A stretch of 64,000 bases of DNA from Novosphingobium sp. G106 (GTDB lineage Bacteria; Pseudomonadota; Alphaproteobacteria; Sphingomonadales; Sphingomonadaceae). Both the position numbers and the translations under genes were made by a program. Position 1 is the first letter of the stretch, and every line of letters begins with the position of its first letter. Below the pieces are notes generated by a model. The model searched no databases, was not told where the DNA came from, and saw only the letters and a list, made by a program, of their open reading frames with translations. The stretch is from positions 1,612,001 to 1,676,000 of the forward strand of contig NZ_JAHOOZ010000001.1 of assembly GCF_019075875.1 (NCBI RefSeq). The letters are read 5' to 3'. Shown here piece after piece: positions 52,637 through 58,983 of this stretch.

Positions 52637-53026
52637 TCAGGATTCGAAAAGAGCCGAAGACCTGTTAAAACCGTTGCGGAAATCACGGGTGGGCTTGCGA
52701 ATTTTATTCAGGGATTCGCCCACTTTACTTGGCGGGTACTCTCCCTGGACCACTGGATGCCACACTTGCTCCGTAGCGACTGGTTCCATATCATCGAGCA
52801 GCCTGCCTCCGGTCAGGATGTTCGATGATATGGCAATAGCCACCATATGGGTACGGTTTCGGGCACGCATCTTCAGCCGCATGGTGTCGATATGACACTC
52901 GACCGTGCGCGGCGCGATTTCGATTTCCTGGGCCACCTCCTTGGCGGAGTAGCCCAGCGCCACCAGTTCCAGGATCTGCAATTCACGGGCCGTGAGTTCC
53001 AGCCCGCTGTCACTTTCCCTAGGCAT
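52637..53026 (-). CDS. Single-domain LuxR-type (GerE) helix-turn-helix regulator
   Basis: A 129-residue protein. Residues 9-70 are the LuxR DNA-binding domain: LTARELQILELVALGYSAKE and IAPRTVECHIDTMRLKMRAR, then MVAIAISSNIL. No receiver or autoinducer domain; the C-terminal 55 residues are not recognised. The ATG at 53026 follows AAAGGGGG. It is divergent from the repeat-protein gene with a 524-base gap, so it is a candidate regulator of the amyloid-like locus. Confidence 0.86.
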   Translation of the reverse strand: MPRESDSGLELTARELQILELVALGYSAKEVAQEIEIAPRTVECHIDTMRLKMRARNRTHMVAIAISSNILTGGRLLDDMEPVATEQVWHPVVQGEYPPSKVGESLNKIRKPTRDFRNGFNRSSALFES

Positions 53027-53550
53027 ATAGCCCCCTTTCTGCAGAACGCAGTCATCTAGGGCGACACATAATCCAGCACTCGCGATCCCGTGCTTGCCGT
53101 CGTTTTATCTAGCAAGCCAGGCTGTTAAGGCCCCATAAACGAATTATTATAATAAGTTAGCATCCTATTGCAGGAACGCCCGAGTTGCAAGCATGAAAAG
53201 AACGCGACGTGAAAAACTACGTATAGCAATTTACCATAGTGTTCTTTCACAAGCGATTAGGGTTTGTCCTAATCCGACTTTATCAGGTGCGACACACTCG
53301 CAATAGCCTCAGTTAGCCTACTGAAAATCGCGGTTTATTTGTTGATGGCCGCCGCGTGACGGCATCGCCTGATGCGTCCTGTTTTGGGACGCGGAACATC
53401 GGCCCCGAAACCGCATGACAAATATCAATCGGCGAATCCGGCGTTTCCATAGCCTGTGATTGTCCGCGATGGCGGACGAATCGCGATCGGCATCCCGCGT
53501 TCTTCTTTCTCGGGGGGCAAATGCAGATCGTTCCACATCAGGAGTGAAAC
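53027..53550. other. 524-base intergenic region, AT-rich, probable regulatory region
   Basis: No gene seen. Bases about 53100-53240 are much richer in A/T than the rest of the window (for example AATTATTATAATAAG at 53142-53156), as expected for a heavily regulated promoter or bent DNA. CGTGAAAAACT at 53208-53218 recurs upstream of the Crp/Fnr gene at 58923-58933. A TGA-N6-TCA site lies at 53416-53427. AGGAG stands just before the repeat-protein start. Confidence 0.5.
53415..53428. promoter_or_regulatory. Possible Crp/Fnr-family binding site
   Basis: ATGAC-AAAT-ATCAA has the TGA-N6-TCA core of Crp/Fnr boxes with a perfect FNR-type right half. It lies about 120 bases before the repeat-protein gene, and a Crp/Fnr regulator is encoded in the same locus. 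One such core per few kilobases is expected by chance, so confidence is low. Confidence 0.3.
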
Positions 53551-54591
53551 ATGACCAAGAAGCACTTCCTCACGGCGTCCGCCATCGCCCTTAGCCTGGC
53601 GATCAGCAGCGGTGCGGCCTATGCCGAAGTCGACGTCGACGCCAACGGCAACCAGCTTTCGAACGCCAGTGGCCAGAATGCCGACGACGGTTCGAACATC
53701 TCGACCTCGGGCGCGCTCGCCGACCATTCGTACAACGGTGGCGACACCACGACGAAGACCAGCACCGACACCGACACCACGACGAAGTCGTACAGCGACA
53801 GCTCGACCACGAACGTGACCAAGGATTCCAACAATCCTGACAGCTCGGTCTCGACGAAGAACGACGACTCGAACAACACGAGCACCAAGACCAACACCGA
53901 CACCGACACGAAGAACCTCGCGTCGTTCAACACGCTGACCAACACCAAGACCAACAACGACACCGACACCACGACGAAGACGAGCACGGAAGACTCGTAC
54001 AACGCGGACAGCTCGACTCACACCAAGACGAGCACCGACGATTCGTACAACTCGGACAGCTCGACCACGACGAAGACCAACACCGACACCGACACGAAGA
54101 ACCTCGCGTCGTTCAACACCGTCACCAAGGACGCGAACAACACCGACACCACAACCAAGAACGACGACTCGTACAACACGTCGACGAAGAACGACGATTC
54201 GTTCAACACCGACAACTCGACGCACTCGAAGAACGAAGACTCGTTCAACACCGACAACTCGACCCATTCGAAGAACGAAAACTCGTTCAACACGAAGGAC
54301 TCGAACAACACCGACAGCTCCGTCACGACCAACGTCGTGGCAGCTCAGGATCTGAAGGGCGTTGTCGTCAACATCGGCGTCAAGGAAGTCGTCGATGCGG
54401 GTCCGTCGGGCCTGACCACCGGCAGCAACAACATCGGTGGCAGCTCGTTCGCCGCTTATGCCGGTATCCTGAACGCCGCCTGGAACACGGGCGTCAACTC
54501 GAACGCGCAGGCCGCGACGAACATCTCGGCTCAGGGCAACGTGACCTTCGGTAGCGTCAGCGGCGCCGCCGCGGCCGCGCCGCAGCCCTAA
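53551..54591 (+). CDS. Secreted Asn/Asp/Ser/Thr-rich repeat protein, FapC-like candidate amyloid
   Basis: A 346-residue exported protein. The signal peptide ends GAAYAE. Residues about 60-265 are a low-complexity, very acidic run of Thr/Asp/Asn/Ser/Lys motifs (TKTNTDTDTKNLASFNT twice; DSFNTDNSTHSKNE in tandem). The C-terminal 80 residues are different: hydrophobic-polar sequence with NTGVNSNAQAATN and GNVTFG, resembling the Asn/Gln/Ala motifs of Fap amyloid subunits. AGGAG lies six bases before the ATG. With the C39 peptidase and FapF-like protein nearby, it is the likely main extracellular subunit. There are no Cys residues. Amyloid nature is inference. Confidence 0.85.
   Translation: MTKKHFLTASAIALSLAISSGAAYAEVDVDANGNQLSNASGQNADDGSNISTSGALADHSYNGGDTTTKTSTDTDTTTKSYSDSSTTNVTKDSNNPDSSVSTKNDDSNNTSTKTNTDTDTKNLASFNTLTNTKTNNDTDTTTKTSTEDSYNADSSTHTKTSTDDSYNSDSSTTTKTNTDTDTKNLASFNTVTKDANNTDTTTKNDDSYNTSTKNDDSFNTDNSTHSKNEDSFNTDNSTHSKNENSFNTKDSNNTDSSVTTNVVAAQDLKGVVVNIGVKEVVDAGPSGLTTGSNNIGGSSFAAYAGILNAAWNTGVNSNAQAATNISAQGNVTFGSVSGAAAAAPQP
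53887..53933 (+). repeat. 47-base direct repeat, copy 1
   Basis: Identical to 54073-54119, 186 bases away, inside the repeat-protein gene; it encodes most of KTNTDTDTKNLASFNT. Perfect identity including third codon positions points to recent duplication or gene conversion. Confidence 0.85.
54073..54119 (+). repeat. 47-base direct repeat, copy 2
   Basis: Identical to 53887-53933. The frame is kept, so recombination between copies would delete exactly 62 codons. Confidence 0.85.
54196..54279 (+). repeat. Tandem 42-base repeat, two units plus part of a third
   Basis: Units 54196-54237 and 54238-54279 each encode DSFNTDNSTHSKNE and differ at a few bases; a third partial unit (NSFNT) follows. 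Period of 14 codons. Confidence 0.8.
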
Positions 54592-54608
54592 CGACGTAGC
54601 CAACCTTG

Positions 54609-54636
54609 CCGGGCCGGTTGTTCGCAACCGGCCCGG
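54609..54636 (+). terminator. Strong hairpin between repeat protein and RGG protein 1
   Basis: A perfect 12-base stem (CCGGGCCGGTTG / CAACCGGCCCGG) with TTCG loop starts 18 bases after the repeat-protein stop. Only a weak T-rich tail (TCCTTGATCTTCGGTTT) follows, so it may act as a partial terminator or as a 3' stabiliser that lets the first gene be expressed far more than the rest. Confidence 0.65.
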
Positions 54637-54685
54637 TCCTTGATCTTCGGTTTATCCCGAAGATGGTTTATTCGGAGTAAGCACC

Positions 54686-55118
54686 ATGTTGCAGACCTCC
54701 CGGTTCGGTCCGGCTGCCTTCGCCATGCTTCTGCTTCTGCCCATCGAATGCGCAGCAGCGGCCCCCCCTGGCTTCGGCACCCGGCATCGAGGCGTTCGAC
54801 GCTACGCCGGCGGTTGCCGGTGCGGTCGAGAACGAAGTCCCCCTCCTCGCCATGGCCCCCGTCGACGAACAGCGGCCGACCATGGGCGAAGAGGACCTAG
54901 GCGAGCTTCGCGGCGGCCAGAGCCTCGTCCTTGCAAACCAGACCCTTGCGGCACTGAACGCCGGCAACACCATAGGCGGCAACAACATCGCCGGTGCAGT
55001 CAACGTATCGGACAATGCCCTGTCCAACTTCAACGGCCTGGGCAACATCATGATCAATACGGGCTCGCAGGTGAACCTGCAGTCGGGTATGAATATAACC
55101 ATCAACGTCCATCCGTGA
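54686..55118 (+). CDS. Secreted RGG (double-glycine) protein 1, frameshifted
   Basis: A 143-residue protein once one base is removed from a seven-C run (54762-54768). The ATG at 54686 has GGAG eight bases upstream and starts a signal peptide (MLQTSRFGPAAFAMLLLLP). The restored frame runs ECAAAAPLASAPGIEAFDAT into EEDLGELRGGQSLVLANQT, then an Asn/Gly-rich tail ending MNITINVHP. Gly76-Gly77 look like a double-glycine cleavage site for the C39 peptidase encoded next. The tail shares a motif with RGG protein 2 (NIMINTGSQVNLQ compared with NVIINTANNTSIQ). Probably a minor fibre subunit or nucleator. As written, only a start at 54852 opens the mature part. Confidence 0.75.
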
Positions 55119-55126
55119 GGAAGCTG

Positions 55127-55903
55127 ATGCCGCGGCTTGCCCCTTCCAGGCTTTTCACGACCGCGAGGCGCAGCGTGCCTCGCTGCGTTCTCGGCCTGGC
55201 GGCTTGTGCGCTTACCGCGATGACATCACAGCCGGCTTCCTCCGCCGAGGTACAGATCGGTGGCGGCCCCAATGCCTATTTCTCGGTCAATGTGATGAGC
55301 TGGTGGGAGATACCCTTCCGCACCGTGGTTCGGCAGCGTTACGACTTCAGCTGCGGCTCGGCCGCGGTGGCAACGCTGCTGACCTATCACTATGCCAAAC
55401 CCACCAGCGAGACGATGACCTTCTCGTCGATGTGGGACCACGGCGACCAGGAAGCAATCCGCAAGGCCGGCTTCTCCATGCTCGACATGCGCAATTACCT
55501 GATCAGCGTCGGGCTGCGCGCCGAAGGCTTCCGCTTCGACATCGAAGACCTCAAGAAAGTGCGGCGCCCGGGCATCGCCCTGATGAACCTCAACGGGTAC
55601 AAGCACTTCGTCGTCATCAAGGGGATCACGAACTCCAGCGTGCTGGTCGGTGATCCGATGCTCGGCCTGAAGACCTACCCAATCGACGAATTCGCCCAGC
55701 ACTGGAACGGCATCCTGCTGGCAATCATCGAAGCACCGGACAAGCGGCGTCCCACCTTCAACCTCGCCAGCGAGTGGGGTCCCTGGTCGAAGGCGCGGCC
55801 CGAGGACGCCTATCCCGCCGAAAGCGCTCAGCACCTGACCTCATTCCTACCGCCGACCTACCAGTTCAGCCCGCAAATCATCGTCGATCTGCGGCCGAAA
55901 TAG
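55127..55903 (+). CDS. Periplasmic C39-family peptidase, FapD-like
   Basis: A 258-residue protein with a signal peptide (ends QPASSAE). Cys76 in YDFSCGSAAVATLL, His160 in GYKHFVVIKG and Asp176 in VGDPMLG form the C39 papain-like triad. C39 enzymes cut after double-glycine motifs; this one has no ABC transporter attached and is exported, as FapD is in Pseudomonas. The two RGG proteins that flank it are its likely substrates. ATG 55127 has GAGGA upstream; a GTG at 55115 overlapping the previous stop is also possible. Confidence 0.9.
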   Translation: MPRLAPSRLFTTARRSVPRCVLGLAACALTAMTSQPASSAEVQIGGGPNAYFSVNVMSWWEIPFRTVVRQRYDFSCGSAAVATLLTYHYAKPTSETMTFSSMWDHGDQEAIRKAGFSMLDMRNYLISVGLRAEGFRFDIEDLKKVRRPGIALMNLNGYKHFVVIKGITNSSVLVGDPMLGLKTYPIDEFAQHWNGILLAIIEAPDKRRPTFNLASEWGPWSKARPEDAYPAESAQHLTSFLPPTYQFSPQIIVDLRPK

Positions 55904-55912
55904 GTGAACGCC

Positions 55913-56614
55913 ATGTGGCATCAATTGGCCCGTTGCCTCGCGATCGCTCTCGGATGCCTGGTCGCGTCCGAGCCCGCCCAAGCGGCCGTGCCGGGGATCG
56001 ACAACTTCGATAGCGATGCAGAGCTGTTCCCCACTGCCGACAGCAGCGCATTGATCGCCAGCGAAGGGCCGCAGTTCGCCCGATCGGAAGCCGCCGTGGG
56101 CGGTGCCGGCGACGAGGCTATGTTCGCCGCCGCCGAAACCGTCGATGCGGGCGAACTCGGCGACCAGCGCGGCGGCTTCGTCCTCGACGGCCTCGACATC
56201 AAGCTCGGCGCTCAGGTCCAAACGCTGGTCAATGGCGAACTCGCGCTTACCACGGCCATCACCTGGTCGGACTCGGGCGTGGAAACTTCGCAATTCGTTT
56301 CCAGCATGCTGTCCCAGCCCACCGCCCAGCAGTTGCAGTCCGGCCTGCTCAAGACCGGCAACATCTCGCTGAACGTCGGCGGCTCCACGGTCTTCCTCGC
56401 CAACGACGGCCAGACCGCGCTGATCCAGAACGCGACGTCGGGCATCCAGAACGTCATCATCAACACGGCGAACAACACCAGCATTCAGACGATGGTCAAT
56501 GCAACCATCGATCTCAGCGGCTACGCCGCGTTCCAGGCCACCAACCAGAGCAACACGCTGGGCAGTTCCCTGGGATCGGCGATCGGCAATGCAACGATCG
56601 GTATCGTCCGCTGA
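55913..56614 (+). CDS. Secreted RGG (double-glycine) protein 2
   Basis: A 233-residue protein with a signal peptide (ends EPAQAAV). VDAGELGDQRGGFVLDGLDI holds an RGG double-glycine motif (Gly87-Gly88) like that of RGG protein 1. The rest is strand-rich with many Asn, Thr, Gln and Ser (LLKTGNISLNVGG, NVIINTANNTSIQTMVN, FQATNQSNTLGSSLGSAIGN). No Cys in the mature part. ATG 55913 follows AGGTGA at good spacing; GTG 55904 is an alternative. The position after the C39 peptidase matches FapE in Fap operons, but I cannot show homology by eye. Confidence 0.8.
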   Translation: MWHQLARCLAIALGCLVASEPAQAAVPGIDNFDSDAELFPTADSSALIASEGPQFARSEAAVGGAGDEAMFAAAETVDAGELGDQRGGFVLDGLDIKLGAQVQTLVNGELALTTAITWSDSGVETSQFVSSMLSQPTAQQLQSGLLKTGNISLNVGGSTVFLANDGQTALIQNATSGIQNVIINTANNTSIQTMVNATIDLSGYAAFQATNQSNTLGSSLGSAIGNATIGIVR

Positions 56615-56715
56615 CGACCGAGCGGCGCGCGGCAAGCCAGGCGAGCCTTTCCCGACAGACTTCGTGATGCGTTTCGTCCGGCCAGGATCCATTTTAGCCA
56701 ACACGCTCGTGCTGC

Positions 56716-56764
56716 GCTTGTCGAAGCACTATTCGCGTTGCTGTGTCAGCGCCCTTCGACAAGC
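56716..56764. repeat. REP-like inverted repeat in a convergent intergenic region
   Basis: GCTTGTCGAAG (56716-56726) and its exact reverse complement CTTCGACAAGC (56754-56764) flank 27 bases. Sequences of the type CTTCGACAAGCTCAGG are, from memory, dispersed many times in sphingomonad genomes. It lies between the convergent RGG protein 2 and FapF-like genes and may also end transcription. Nothing else is seen in this 237-base gap. Confidence 0.65.
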
Positions 56765-56851
56765 TCAGGGTGAGCAGGCTTGTCTTGTGATCCGGGTCCG
56801 GGCACGACGCCAACCGCGTCCGGCGCAGCAGCTTGGGGACAGGCTCAGGCT

Positions 56852-58201
56852 TTAGTGGCCGGCCAGATCGACGCTGAAGGGCACCCGCAGCGAGAGCGAG
56901 ACGTCCGGTGCGTCCTCGGTAACACCGACATCGACACCGAAGTTGATCGAGGTCTGCTCCGTCAGGCGATAGGCCATGCCGAGCGACAGTGAGCCGACCT
57001 GCAGCCGCGAGGACTTCTGGGTCGTTCCGCCGATCTCCGAGGTGGTCGGGAAGAGGTAGCTGTGGCGGTAGCCGAGCGAGAACGAGAAGCGCGGGTTAAG
57101 CGCAAAGCCAAAGCCGAGGTTGGCGGAAATCGCGTCGCCCGGATTGACGTGGCCGACAAAGGTCCCGCCGACGTCCTTGTTGATGTCGCGGCCCATGTGC
57201 CAGAGATAGCCGACGCCGCCGTAGATCACGACAGGATCCGATGGCAGCAGGAAGTTGAGCGTCGGCGAGACCGCCCAGAAGCCCGAACCCGTGGTGAGGC
57301 CCGTGGCGATCCCGAACTCGTCATAACCGATATCGAACGGCCCCTTGCCGGTGTCGCTCTTGACGGTGACACCCGCGGTGAAGATGGGATGCTGCGCCGT
57401 GCGCGGCCGGTTGATCTGATAGCGCAGGCCGAACTCGATATCGCCGATATCCTTCTCCTTGAAGGAGAGCGTCCGGACGATACCCTCATCGCGCTGCTGG
57501 ACCACATCGATCCGGTCGCTGCGGTAAAGATACGGGACGCGCACTTCAGCCTGCAGGTTGTTGGTCAGTCCATAGCGAGCCGAGTAGGCCCCGACGAGCG
57601 TCAGACGATCGGCATTGCTGGCCTCGATCACGCCGATCTGGATGCCGGGAACGAGTTCGATGCCGCGGAACACGAGGCGATTGGTCGACGACAGGGCGTA
57701 TTCAAGCGAAGGCTCGATCACCAGGGTGCCCGCCTTTGTCAGCACGCCCTGGCCCTCGGGCACGGCGGCGACGCGCGCCTGAACCTTGTTGGTCTCTTCC
57801 TCGGCCGGCGCCTCGCCGACCGGCTGGCCGGGAACCGGCGCGGCTCCCGTCAGCGGAGCCTGCGCAGACTGCTGCGCCAGGTCGAACCTGTCGCTCCTGT
57901 CACTTCCTGGAACCAACGGGGCCATCGGGATCGGTCCGCCCAGGCCGCGCCCCTGGATCATCGCGAGCATGGTGTCACTGGCCTCGGCACTCCGGGCGAG
58001 CATCTGCTTCAGCGTGGCGATTTCGTCCTGTTGCTCGCGCACCCGACGCTCGAGCACGTCGACGCGCTGCTCCATCGAGACCGTCGCAGTGACGACCGCC
58101 GCATCCTGGGCCAGCGCTTGCCCGCCGGGCAGCGCAAAGACCAAAGAGACGGCGCTGCCGAGCAGGGCCCTAGATAGCAATGCGGTCCCTTGCCGTCCCA
58201 T
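56852..58201 (-). CDS. FapF-like outer-membrane beta-barrel protein with N-terminal coiled coil
   Basis: A 449-residue outer-membrane protein. A signal peptide (ends GGQALAQ) leads to a coiled coil (about 42-70, MEQRVDVLERRVREQQDEI), a Pro-rich linker (85-130) and a 12-strand-type barrel starting VLTKAGTLVIEPSLEYAL, then FRGIELVPGIQIGVIEASNADR and RYGLTNNLQAEVRVPYLYRSDR. This layout is that of FapF, the trimeric channel through which Fap amyloid subunits leave the cell. The ATG at 58201 has GGGAG seven bases upstream and overlaps the end of the Crp/Fnr gene by 32 bases, so the two are one operon. Confidence 0.85.
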   Translation of the reverse strand: MGRQGTALLSRALLGSAVSLVFALPGGQALAQDAAVVTATVSMEQRVDVLERRVREQQDEIATLKQMLARSAEASDTMLAMIQGRGLGGPIPMAPLVPGSDRSDRFDLAQQSAQAPLTGAAPVPGQPVGEAPAEEETNKVQARVAAVPEGQGVLTKAGTLVIEPSLEYALSSTNRLVFRGIELVPGIQIGVIEASNADRLTLVGAYSARYGLTNNLQAEVRVPYLYRSDRIDVVQQRDEGIVRTLSFKEKDIGDIEFGLRYQINRPRTAQHPIFTAGVTVKSDTGKGPFDIGYDEFGIATGLTTGSGFWAVSPTLNFLLPSDPVVIYGGVGYLWHMGRDINKDVGGTFVGHVNPGDAISANLGFGFALNPRFSFSLGYRHSYLFPTTSEIGGTTQKSSRLQVGSLSLGMAYRLTEQTSINFGVDVGVTEDAPDVSLSLRVPFSVDLAGH

Positions 58202-58844
58202 GGACGTTCTCCCTGACAAGCACATCGTCGTGGCCAACCCGGTCGGCGTCGCCATCGGCAACGACTTCCAGTCCGACGCGATCGAAGATGCGGAAATCGT
58301 GCAGGCCCGCGTGGGCGATGAACCCGCGCTTGACCAAGGCAGTGAGTGCGCGGCTCACGGTTTCCGGAGTCAGGCCCAGATAGTCCGCGATATCGCTGCG
58401 GTGCATGGGAAGGTGCACCAAGCCACCGATGCCCGTGCGGGCGTAGAGGTCACGCAGGAAAGCCGCGACGCGCTCCGCCGCGGTGCGATGGCCCAGCAGC
58501 AGGATCGAACGCTCGGCGCTGATCAGCGCCCGTTCGAAAACACCTTCGCCGACATTCTCGGCACCCCAGCGAACGCGCCGCACCCGGGCCGTGGACGTGA
58601 CGACTTCGGCCGAAGCCTTGTGCCGGCCGTGTTCCGCTCCGAAGATCTCTCCGGGTACGAAGAAACCGGTGATCTGCCGCCGGCCATCGAACGAAACATG
58701 CGCGGTGAGAACCATGCCGCGCACGACTTCGAACCAGCACTGCGCCGAATCGCCCTGGTGATAGATCACATCGCCCTGATCGAACCCAACATCGGCAATA
58801 TGCCCGGCGCTGACGGCATTTTCAGAGAATCGGTAAGATGGCAT
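58170..58844 (-). CDS. Crp/Fnr family transcriptional regulator
   Basis: A 224-residue regulator. An N-terminal cyclic-nucleotide-binding-type barrel (DQGDVIYHQGDSAQCWFEV, GFFVPGEIFG) is joined by a dimer helix to a Crp helix-turn-helix (MHRSDIADYLGLTPETVSRAL, LVKRGFI). There is no N-terminal Cys cluster, so it is not an FNR-type iron-sulfur sensor. ATG 58844 lies six bases after AAGGGG. It is transcribed with the FapF-like gene, which suggests it controls fibre export, perhaps in response to cAMP from a cyclase such as the one in this window (inference). Confidence 0.9.
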   Translation of the reverse strand: MPSYRFSENAVSAGHIADVGFDQGDVIYHQGDSAQCWFEVVRGMVLTAHVSFDGRRQITGFFVPGEIFGAEHGRHKASAEVVTSTARVRRVRWGAENVGEGVFERALISAERSILLLGHRTAAERVAAFLRDLYARTGIGGLVHLPMHRSDIADYLGLTPETVSRALTALVKRGFIAHAGLHDFRIFDRVGLEVVADGDADRVGHDDVLVRENVHGTARDRIAI

Positions 58845-58983
58845 GCCCAACCCCTTCGCAACGGGGCTAGCTGTTGCCGCGCCAAGATGGGAGCACGGGG
58901 GCTACCTACGTAATTTTCCGGTCGTGAAAAACTGACTAATTTCCGAACGGGATCAGCGACCTCGCAAAGCGCCAACCGGCGCG

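Follow-up and report, generated by a model that had tools for sequence, protein, structure and literature searches.

Which protein does the C39 peptidase of a functional amyloid (Fap) secretion system cut, and can a relative of the Pseudomonas system help to find it? Passages of a 2017 structural study report that the active-site cysteine (Cys38) of FapD is required for FapC secretion and call the target of FapD unclear (PMC5557850), and according to a passage of a 2018 review the FapD substrate is still to be determined (PMC6173800). We address this question at positions 52637-58850 of a 64,000-nucleotide stretch of DNA from Novosphingobium sp. G106 (the window), in which an earlier note had described a Fap-like set of parts. 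Open reading frames (ORFs) together with Pfam and NCBIfam searches of the window proteins bear out this part set. A repeat protein, a small protein here named GG1, a C39 peptidase and a protein here named GG2 are encoded in this order on the plus strand, followed by a convergent gene for an outer-membrane barrel, so that there is no single fapABCDEF operon. The locus probably encodes a Fap-type fibre secretion system which belongs to a branch sister to canonical Fap and in which a leader would be cut by the C39 peptidase. As its proteins score far below the NCBIfam cut-offs for Fap, we refer to it as Fap-like rather than Fap.

Peptidase, barrel and the leader of GG2

The catalytic triad of the peptidase, the FapF fold of the barrel, the common leader, the common C-terminal module and the C39 phylogeny can all be read from the sequence. 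The peptidase matches PF03412 with 71.5 bits (gathering score 22) and falls into a supported sister clade of FapD (98/87). Its catalytic residues are intact, as the earlier note had stated, and the triad is invariant in 20/20; its Sec signal was called by a purpose-made hydrophobicity rule, which assigns signal peptides to 48/51 GG2, 30/30 GG1 and 48/52 C39 proteins. The nearest solved fold to the barrel model is FapF, and a trimeric-type 12-strand barrel, a plug helix and the coiled coil are present, which upholds the proposed FapF-type barrel with N-terminal coiled coil. The note had named a placement of barrel and peptidase outside FapF and FapD as the outcome that would speak against it; the result favours kinship, and the C39 tree together with the barrel fold puts the machinery into a branch of its own apart from canonical Fap, much as had been suggested.

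A search for related loci with the C39 sequence alone returned none, and one with an alignment (A3) recovered relatives. The first set comprises 52 loci, namely 33 of the branch and 18 of canonical Fap with GG2 or FapE, plus L034 without it. The second set consists of 80 named loci, the best 80 of 584 relatives, which are not part of the C39 tree; five of them (L151, L162, L167, L183 and L192) were already in the first set, so that counts refer to 75 loci, three or four of which are near-copies of one another.

GG2 lies directly 3' of the peptidase gene in 51/52 first-set loci, a count which is partly selected because the GG2 ORF of 40 loci was chosen by a pattern containing the motif (the remainder by hand or by hidden Markov model, HMM). 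Behind the signal peptide, the first-set proteins carry a leader of the form hydrophobic-x-D-x-E-L-x3-R-G-(G/K/R); its last residue lies at a distance of 28-91 residues (median 50) from the start, and the residue that comes next is Phe or Tyr in most cases. In 31/33 branch loci the leader ends in Gly (L097 and L100 have Lys instead), and in 18/18 canonical Fap loci, where FapE is the gene after the peptidase, it ends in Lys or Arg. An alignment of 37 GG2 homologues, gathered by plain sequence search, has R86-G87-G88-F89 invariant in 37/37 rows, and the part before these residues differs greatly in length between homologues. GG2 is also present in 73/75 second-set loci, where the leader, taken as the best-scoring window near a match of an HMM which itself includes the leader, ends GG in 68, AG in 2, GK in 2 and GR in 1, with Arg at -3 in 69, Leu or Met at -7 in 73 and Phe or Tyr as the next residue in 64. 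Bacteriocin leaders follow an LSxxELxxIxGG-type consensus, and the features of a double-glycine leader (hydrophobic at -12, acidic at about -8, hydrophobic at -7, Gly-Gly at -2/-1) are found in both GG2 and GG1 of G106.

The tie to canonical FapE was put to a held-out test. A 12-position matrix was built from 64 branch leaders (33 GG2, 31 GG1) and scanned over 383 signal-peptide-like ORFs of the 18 canonical loci. FapE occupies every one of the first 15 of the 383 rows (one being a tandem copy), and 17/18 FapE proteins rank within the first 23; the FapE of L117 is absent from the ranking since the signal-peptide filter removed it. The highest score among 18 ORFs that carry FapB/C repeats is 9.0, compared with 13.8-24.4 for FapE. 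Comparison of the GG2 leader plus mature start with canonical FapE gives a probability of 96.8 (E=2.6e-10, score 46.6; best of 40 column shuffles 15.9), and the NCBIfam FapE model NF058559 matches the GG2 of branch locus L121 at E=1.2e-4. We regard GG2 as FapE-like on account of its leader, the position of its gene behind that of the peptidase and a mature part that matches weakly. In a structural model of low confidence (predicted local distance difference test, pLDDT, 55) the leader forms helix 79-85 and strands begin at residue 89; this position at a helix-strand junction fits the predicted cut site and gives it weak support. A Foldseek search with the same model returned no match at E<=0.001. 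The two strand-rich Asn/Thr proteins of the earlier note are present, but one of them, GG2, sits in the place of FapE with a FapE-type leader, and the other, GG1, bears a leader as well and ends in a Fap-type module; that both look like substrates of the peptidase had escaped the note.

The repeat protein and a shared Fap-type module

The best leader score in the repeat protein is 0.9 bits, as against the FapE range given above, so that it has no leader. Its C-terminus shares with that of GG1 a module of the form I-x2-A-F-x4-G-I-x5-N-T-G-x-N (19 repeat-protein sequences, including one wrongly cut fragment, L088_173, and 85 of GG1). By hhalign, the two modules match each other with a probability of 97 (E=2.8e-11, score 48.2; best of 60 column shuffles 13.5). 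Against 37 canonical FapB/C repeat units, the GG1 module reaches a probability of 91 (E=1.1e-6, score 27.8, shuffle best 13.4) and the repeat-protein module one of 89 (E=2.3e-6, score 28.1, shuffle best 15.7; 60 shuffles each). Since the module profiles match FapB/C repeats, the branch subunits are distant Fap relatives, each with one module, which in the repeat protein is placed after the long T/N/S/D-rich repeat region. The claim that they are no obvious FapB/C homologues therefore holds for the NCBIfam FapB and FapC models, which miss the repeat protein, and fails at the level of profile comparison. An HMM of the FapB/C repeat, used in a plain search, found no window protein, and four rounds of iteration never recruited the window; the same HMM matches ORFs of five branch loci (L205, L156, L184, L160 and L166) at E<=4e-3. 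The C-terminus of branch GG2 matches the GG1 module (probability 87, E=3.8e-6, score 29.5; best control 11.5), and no match was obtained between it and FapB/C repeats. In L156, L157 and L160, branch subunit ORFs carry repeated Fap-type modules and so bridge one-module subunits and FapB/C.

Predicted cleavage and competing explanations

From these data we infer leader cutting, secretion and amyloid formation at the locus along the following lines. The secreted proteins would enter the periplasm by Sec, where the C39 peptidase would grip the leaders of GG2 and GG1 and cut after the double glycine. Cutting would free a beta-rich mature part, which in GG2 starts with Phe, and would license export through the coiled-coil-gated barrel. 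The leaderless repeat protein may be exported uncut and form the fibre body, GG1, as a single-module protein, may nucleate or cap the fibre, and GG2 may start secretion or anchor the fibre. By the same scheme Pseudomonas FapD would cut FapE after L-x-D-x-E-(L/M)-x3-R-G-(K/R), before Phe or Tyr.

The leader thus predicts FapE as the likely FapD substrate together with the exact cut site, which in six loci with FapD above the NCBIfam cut-off (of nine such genomes) would follow residue 39-45. Passages of PMC5557850 describe the Fap proteins as lacking canonical C39 sites, note GG and GA motifs in FapE, and report a whole-cell trypsin digest in which FapE alone was without N-terminal peptides (about 70 residues) and FapA to FapD were covered throughout. 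This map would be blind to the predicted FapE cut because Arg or Lys precedes it and trypsin yields the same end; FapB and FapC, uncut in the map, fit their having no leader. For the Fap superfamily as a whole, from sphingomonads to Pseudomonas, we lean towards the view that FapD-type enzymes are periplasmic double-glycine peptidases and that amyloid export is gated by cleavage of a bacteriocin-type leader, placed behind a Sec signal in FapE (and in GG1 within the branch, perhaps also in FapA). If so, Fap would have moved the maturation step of bacteriocins from the cytoplasm into amyloid assembly, and the last Gly of the Pseudomonas leader would have become Lys or Arg, hiding the cut from a trypsin-based map; the G106 branch, which keeps the full GG leader, would make the site visible by comparison, and the FapD substrate question would narrow to one named bond.

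Several results weigh against this picture. Peptidase and barrel remain below the curated cut-offs (163.6 bits and E=4.2e-48 with FapD NF058616, cut-off 330; 124.6 bits and E=4.3e-36 with FapF NF058560, cut-off 700), and no NCBIfam FapA, FapB, FapC or FapE model matches the window; NF058559 finds the GG2 of G106 not at E<=1 and that of L086 not at E<=0.1. Stripped of the leader, the first 48 mature residues of GG2 compare with FapE at a probability of 4.5 (score 13.4, best control 10.0), and the candidate relation of the GG2 and FapE C-termini was rejected (probability 2.4, no match). Canonical FapE leaders end in Gly-Lys/Arg and thus also lack a final Gly, and no residue of the C39 peptidase tracks the -1 residue apart from clade; the co-variation tried was dismissed as the separating columns follow clade and two in-branch GK rows keep the branch residues. 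As to GG1, the gene before the peptidase carries a leader-like stretch in 72/75 second-set loci, of which 29 end in GG, 17 in GR, 5 in GM and 21 otherwise. Known C39 peptidases want Gly at the leader end, so that GG1 may often be uncut and is a weaker substrate case than GG2; in the G106 genome, moreover, its frame is broken.

FapA deserves separate mention, for it adds to these points. As a leader bearer it was judged suggestive only: of nine FapA proteins picked by eye among the 18 canonical loci, eight carry an L-S-D-x-D-F-like stretch with SG, GG or GR at the end, and that of L116 ends in AA; seven FapA leader sites were scored, with ranks 26-60 of 383, one (L112) at another site; nor is a clear leader apparent in the FapA-like proteins of L105 and L118. 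The peptides seen throughout FapA in the passages of PMC5557850 disfavour it as a FapD substrate. GG1 as a FapA homologue was also rejected, with probabilities of 0.4 with and 0.04 without the leader and no match outside the latter. No NCBIfam FapA match exists in the window, and a passage of PMC6173800 names FapA as the Fap part most often lost.

Three other explanations were weighed. That peptidase and barrel form a bacteriocin-like or signalling-peptide exporter, releasing GG1 as a free peptide in the manner proposed for the Neisseria nap island and with the repeat protein incidental, recalls the nap set, in which C39 peptidase, FapF homologue and GG peptides occur together (passages of PMC11798529), and mature GG1 has only 66 residues. 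Yet with a net charge of -1 and 14/66 residues being Asn it is unlike the cationic Naps, it ends in the module of the subunit, which resembles FapB/C repeats, and a FapE-like GG2 recurs across both locus sets; we consider this quite improbable. Scarcely better are the prospects of R-G-G being a barrel-targeting or chaperone-binding signal, with the C39 protein acting as a chaperone or cutting another target such as the barrel linker. In its favour, the -1 residue can be G, K, R, M or Q, there are C39-like domains which serve as non-catalytic chaperones, and the FapF linker bears GG motifs (passages of PMC5557850). The invariance of the triad, the need for FapD Cys38, the FapE N-terminus missing in mass spectrometry (same source) and the leader located exactly where helix and first strand meet in the low-confidence GG2 model all speak for cleavage instead. 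A decaying locus, no longer working in the G106 genome, is unlikely too, if a little less so: GG1 is broken in a run of seven C (54762-54768) and its homologues are whole, but the other genes all have open frames, an isolated break in a homopolymer is also a common assembly error, and nothing would follow for the rest of the branch. Assembly error, decay or phase variation may each account for the break in this run.

Comparison with known systems and features of the locus

With Pseudomonas Fap the G106 locus shares a C39 peptidase exported by Sec, the FapE-type gene that comes after it, the FapF-fold coiled-coil barrel, the Fap-type modules and the FapE leader. It differs in that no FapA or FapB homologue is recognised and a small GG1 is added, that the subunit has one C-terminal module behind T/N/S/D-rich repeats, that the leader ends in GG instead of GK or GR, and that the barrel gene is convergent and accompanied by a Crp/Fnr gene, with scores under the curated Fap cut-offs. 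The putative pilus system Fil of Acinetobacter has the C39 and barrel superfamilies in common (FilB E=2.7e-33, FilC E=1.7e-20), but in this comparison, made for FilB and FilC, 115.5 and 73.7 bits fall short of the cut-offs of 475 and 630, and both G106 proteins score higher with FapD and FapF. The Neisseria nap island (NapP, NapF, NapA-C) likewise holds a C39 peptidase, a FapF homologue and GG-bearing products, and is set apart by description: in passages of PMC11798529 the Naps are small cationic autolysis peptides, whereas the G106 proteins are acidic, Asn-rich and module-bearing with a Sec signal. Bacteriocin C39-ABC (ATP-binding cassette) transporters share the C39 domain and the leader type; the G106 peptidase in contrast stands alone, is Sec-exported and lacks transporter domains, and in its predicted substrates the leader is preceded by a Sec signal.

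The kind of system is already known: FapD/FapF gene pairs outside Fap were pointed out in 2018 (a passage of PMC6173800), and a set of GG peptides, C39 peptidase and FapF-like protein in Neisseria followed in 2025 (passages of PMC11798529). A literature search, largely outside subscription papers and preprints, found no publication on the FapE leader or on the branch. According to passages of a 2013 survey, Fap is limited to Beta-, Gamma- and Deltaproteobacteria, with none in alphaproteobacteria (PMC3792158); the present loci widen the range of Fap-like fibre machinery to include many alphaproteobacteria as well as other bacteria. Canonical-type fap loci also occur in G106's own alphaproteobacterial family (L102, L103, L104, L105 and L118), with FapE ending in GK and FapD on the canonical side of the C39 tree. 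In L034 (7965-9500), which stands on a very long branch of that tree, no FapE-type gene separates the C39 gene from that of a FapF-like barrel directly behind it. L121 has two tandem C39/GG1/GG2 sets and L112 two tandem fapD/fapE sets. The G106 genome (7.2 Mb) contains one match each to FapD, GG2 and FapF; the closest GG2 homologues are two, both at 91%, one of which (P0002) is labelled Novosphingobium.

Table 1. Features of the Fap-like locus, in window coordinates.
Feature	Position	Strand	Evidence
Small LuxR-type (GerE) regulator, divergent from subunit gene	52637..53026	-	Pfam GerE E=3.9e-16
Repeat protein: signal peptide, T/N/S/D-rich repeats, no double-glycine leader; candidate major fibre subunit	53551..54591	+	
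C-terminal Fap-type module of repeat protein, residues 290-335	54418..54555	+	hhalign
Strong hairpin 3' of repeat-protein gene, 13 pairs, weak T tail	54608..54637	+	
GG1 gene, frame broken; signal peptide and linker, then a double-glycine-type leader and an Asn-rich mature part of 66 residues	54686..55118	+	
GG1 leader MGEEDLGELRGG, predicted cut at leader end	54882..54917	+	
C-terminal Fap-type module of GG1	54990..55115	+	
Sec-exported C39 peptidase, FapD sister; Cys76, His160, Asp176	55127..55903	+	
GG2, FapE-like; variable linker between signal peptide and double-glycine leader, mature part beta-rich	55913..56614	+	
GG2 leader VDAGELGDQRGG, residues 77-88, predicted cut before Phe89	56141..56176	+	
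FapF-like outer-membrane barrel; N-terminal coiled coil residues 43-83, plug-like helix 136-144	56852..58201	-	
Crp/Fnr-family regulator, overlapping barrel gene	58170..58850	-	Pfam HTH_Crp_2 E=1e-16, cNMP_binding E=1.3e-10

The convergent FapF-like gene of the earlier note is true of G106 and common in the branch but not universal: among the 80 named loci the barrel is convergent in 40, downstream on the same strand in 24, upstream in 9 and not found in 7. Its overlap with the Crp/Fnr regulator gene, which the note had placed in one operon with it, is borne out by the coordinates. A Crp/Fnr gene stands beside the barrel in 6/6 close relatives tested and a sigma-54 activator in 3/3 other relatives tested, two of them with a VpsR domain; regulation differs by lineage. 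The ligand of VpsR is cyclic diguanylate (c-di-GMP), and the sigma-54 activators with VpsR domain by the barrel in L030 (4074-5480) and L120 (7798-9120) hint at control by c-di-GMP. A leader-like stretch, LANSDLGALRGA, lies within the barrel protein of branch locus L088, which is of interest in view of the proposal that the FapF linker is cut.

The LuxR-type regulator would have a role in the locus by virtue of its position. No sigma-70-like promoter was found in 53000-58900 (expected 1.1). The hairpin behind the repeat-protein gene is a possible attenuator in whose favour stem length alone can be cited, as the region has 8 terminator-like sites and shuffles have 5.0 (standard deviation 2.5). 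Between the convergent GG2 and barrel genes lies CTTCGACAAGCTCAGGGTGAGC (56754-56775), which we take to be a common intergenic repeat of sphingomonads and which occurs once in the window, with none expected by chance.

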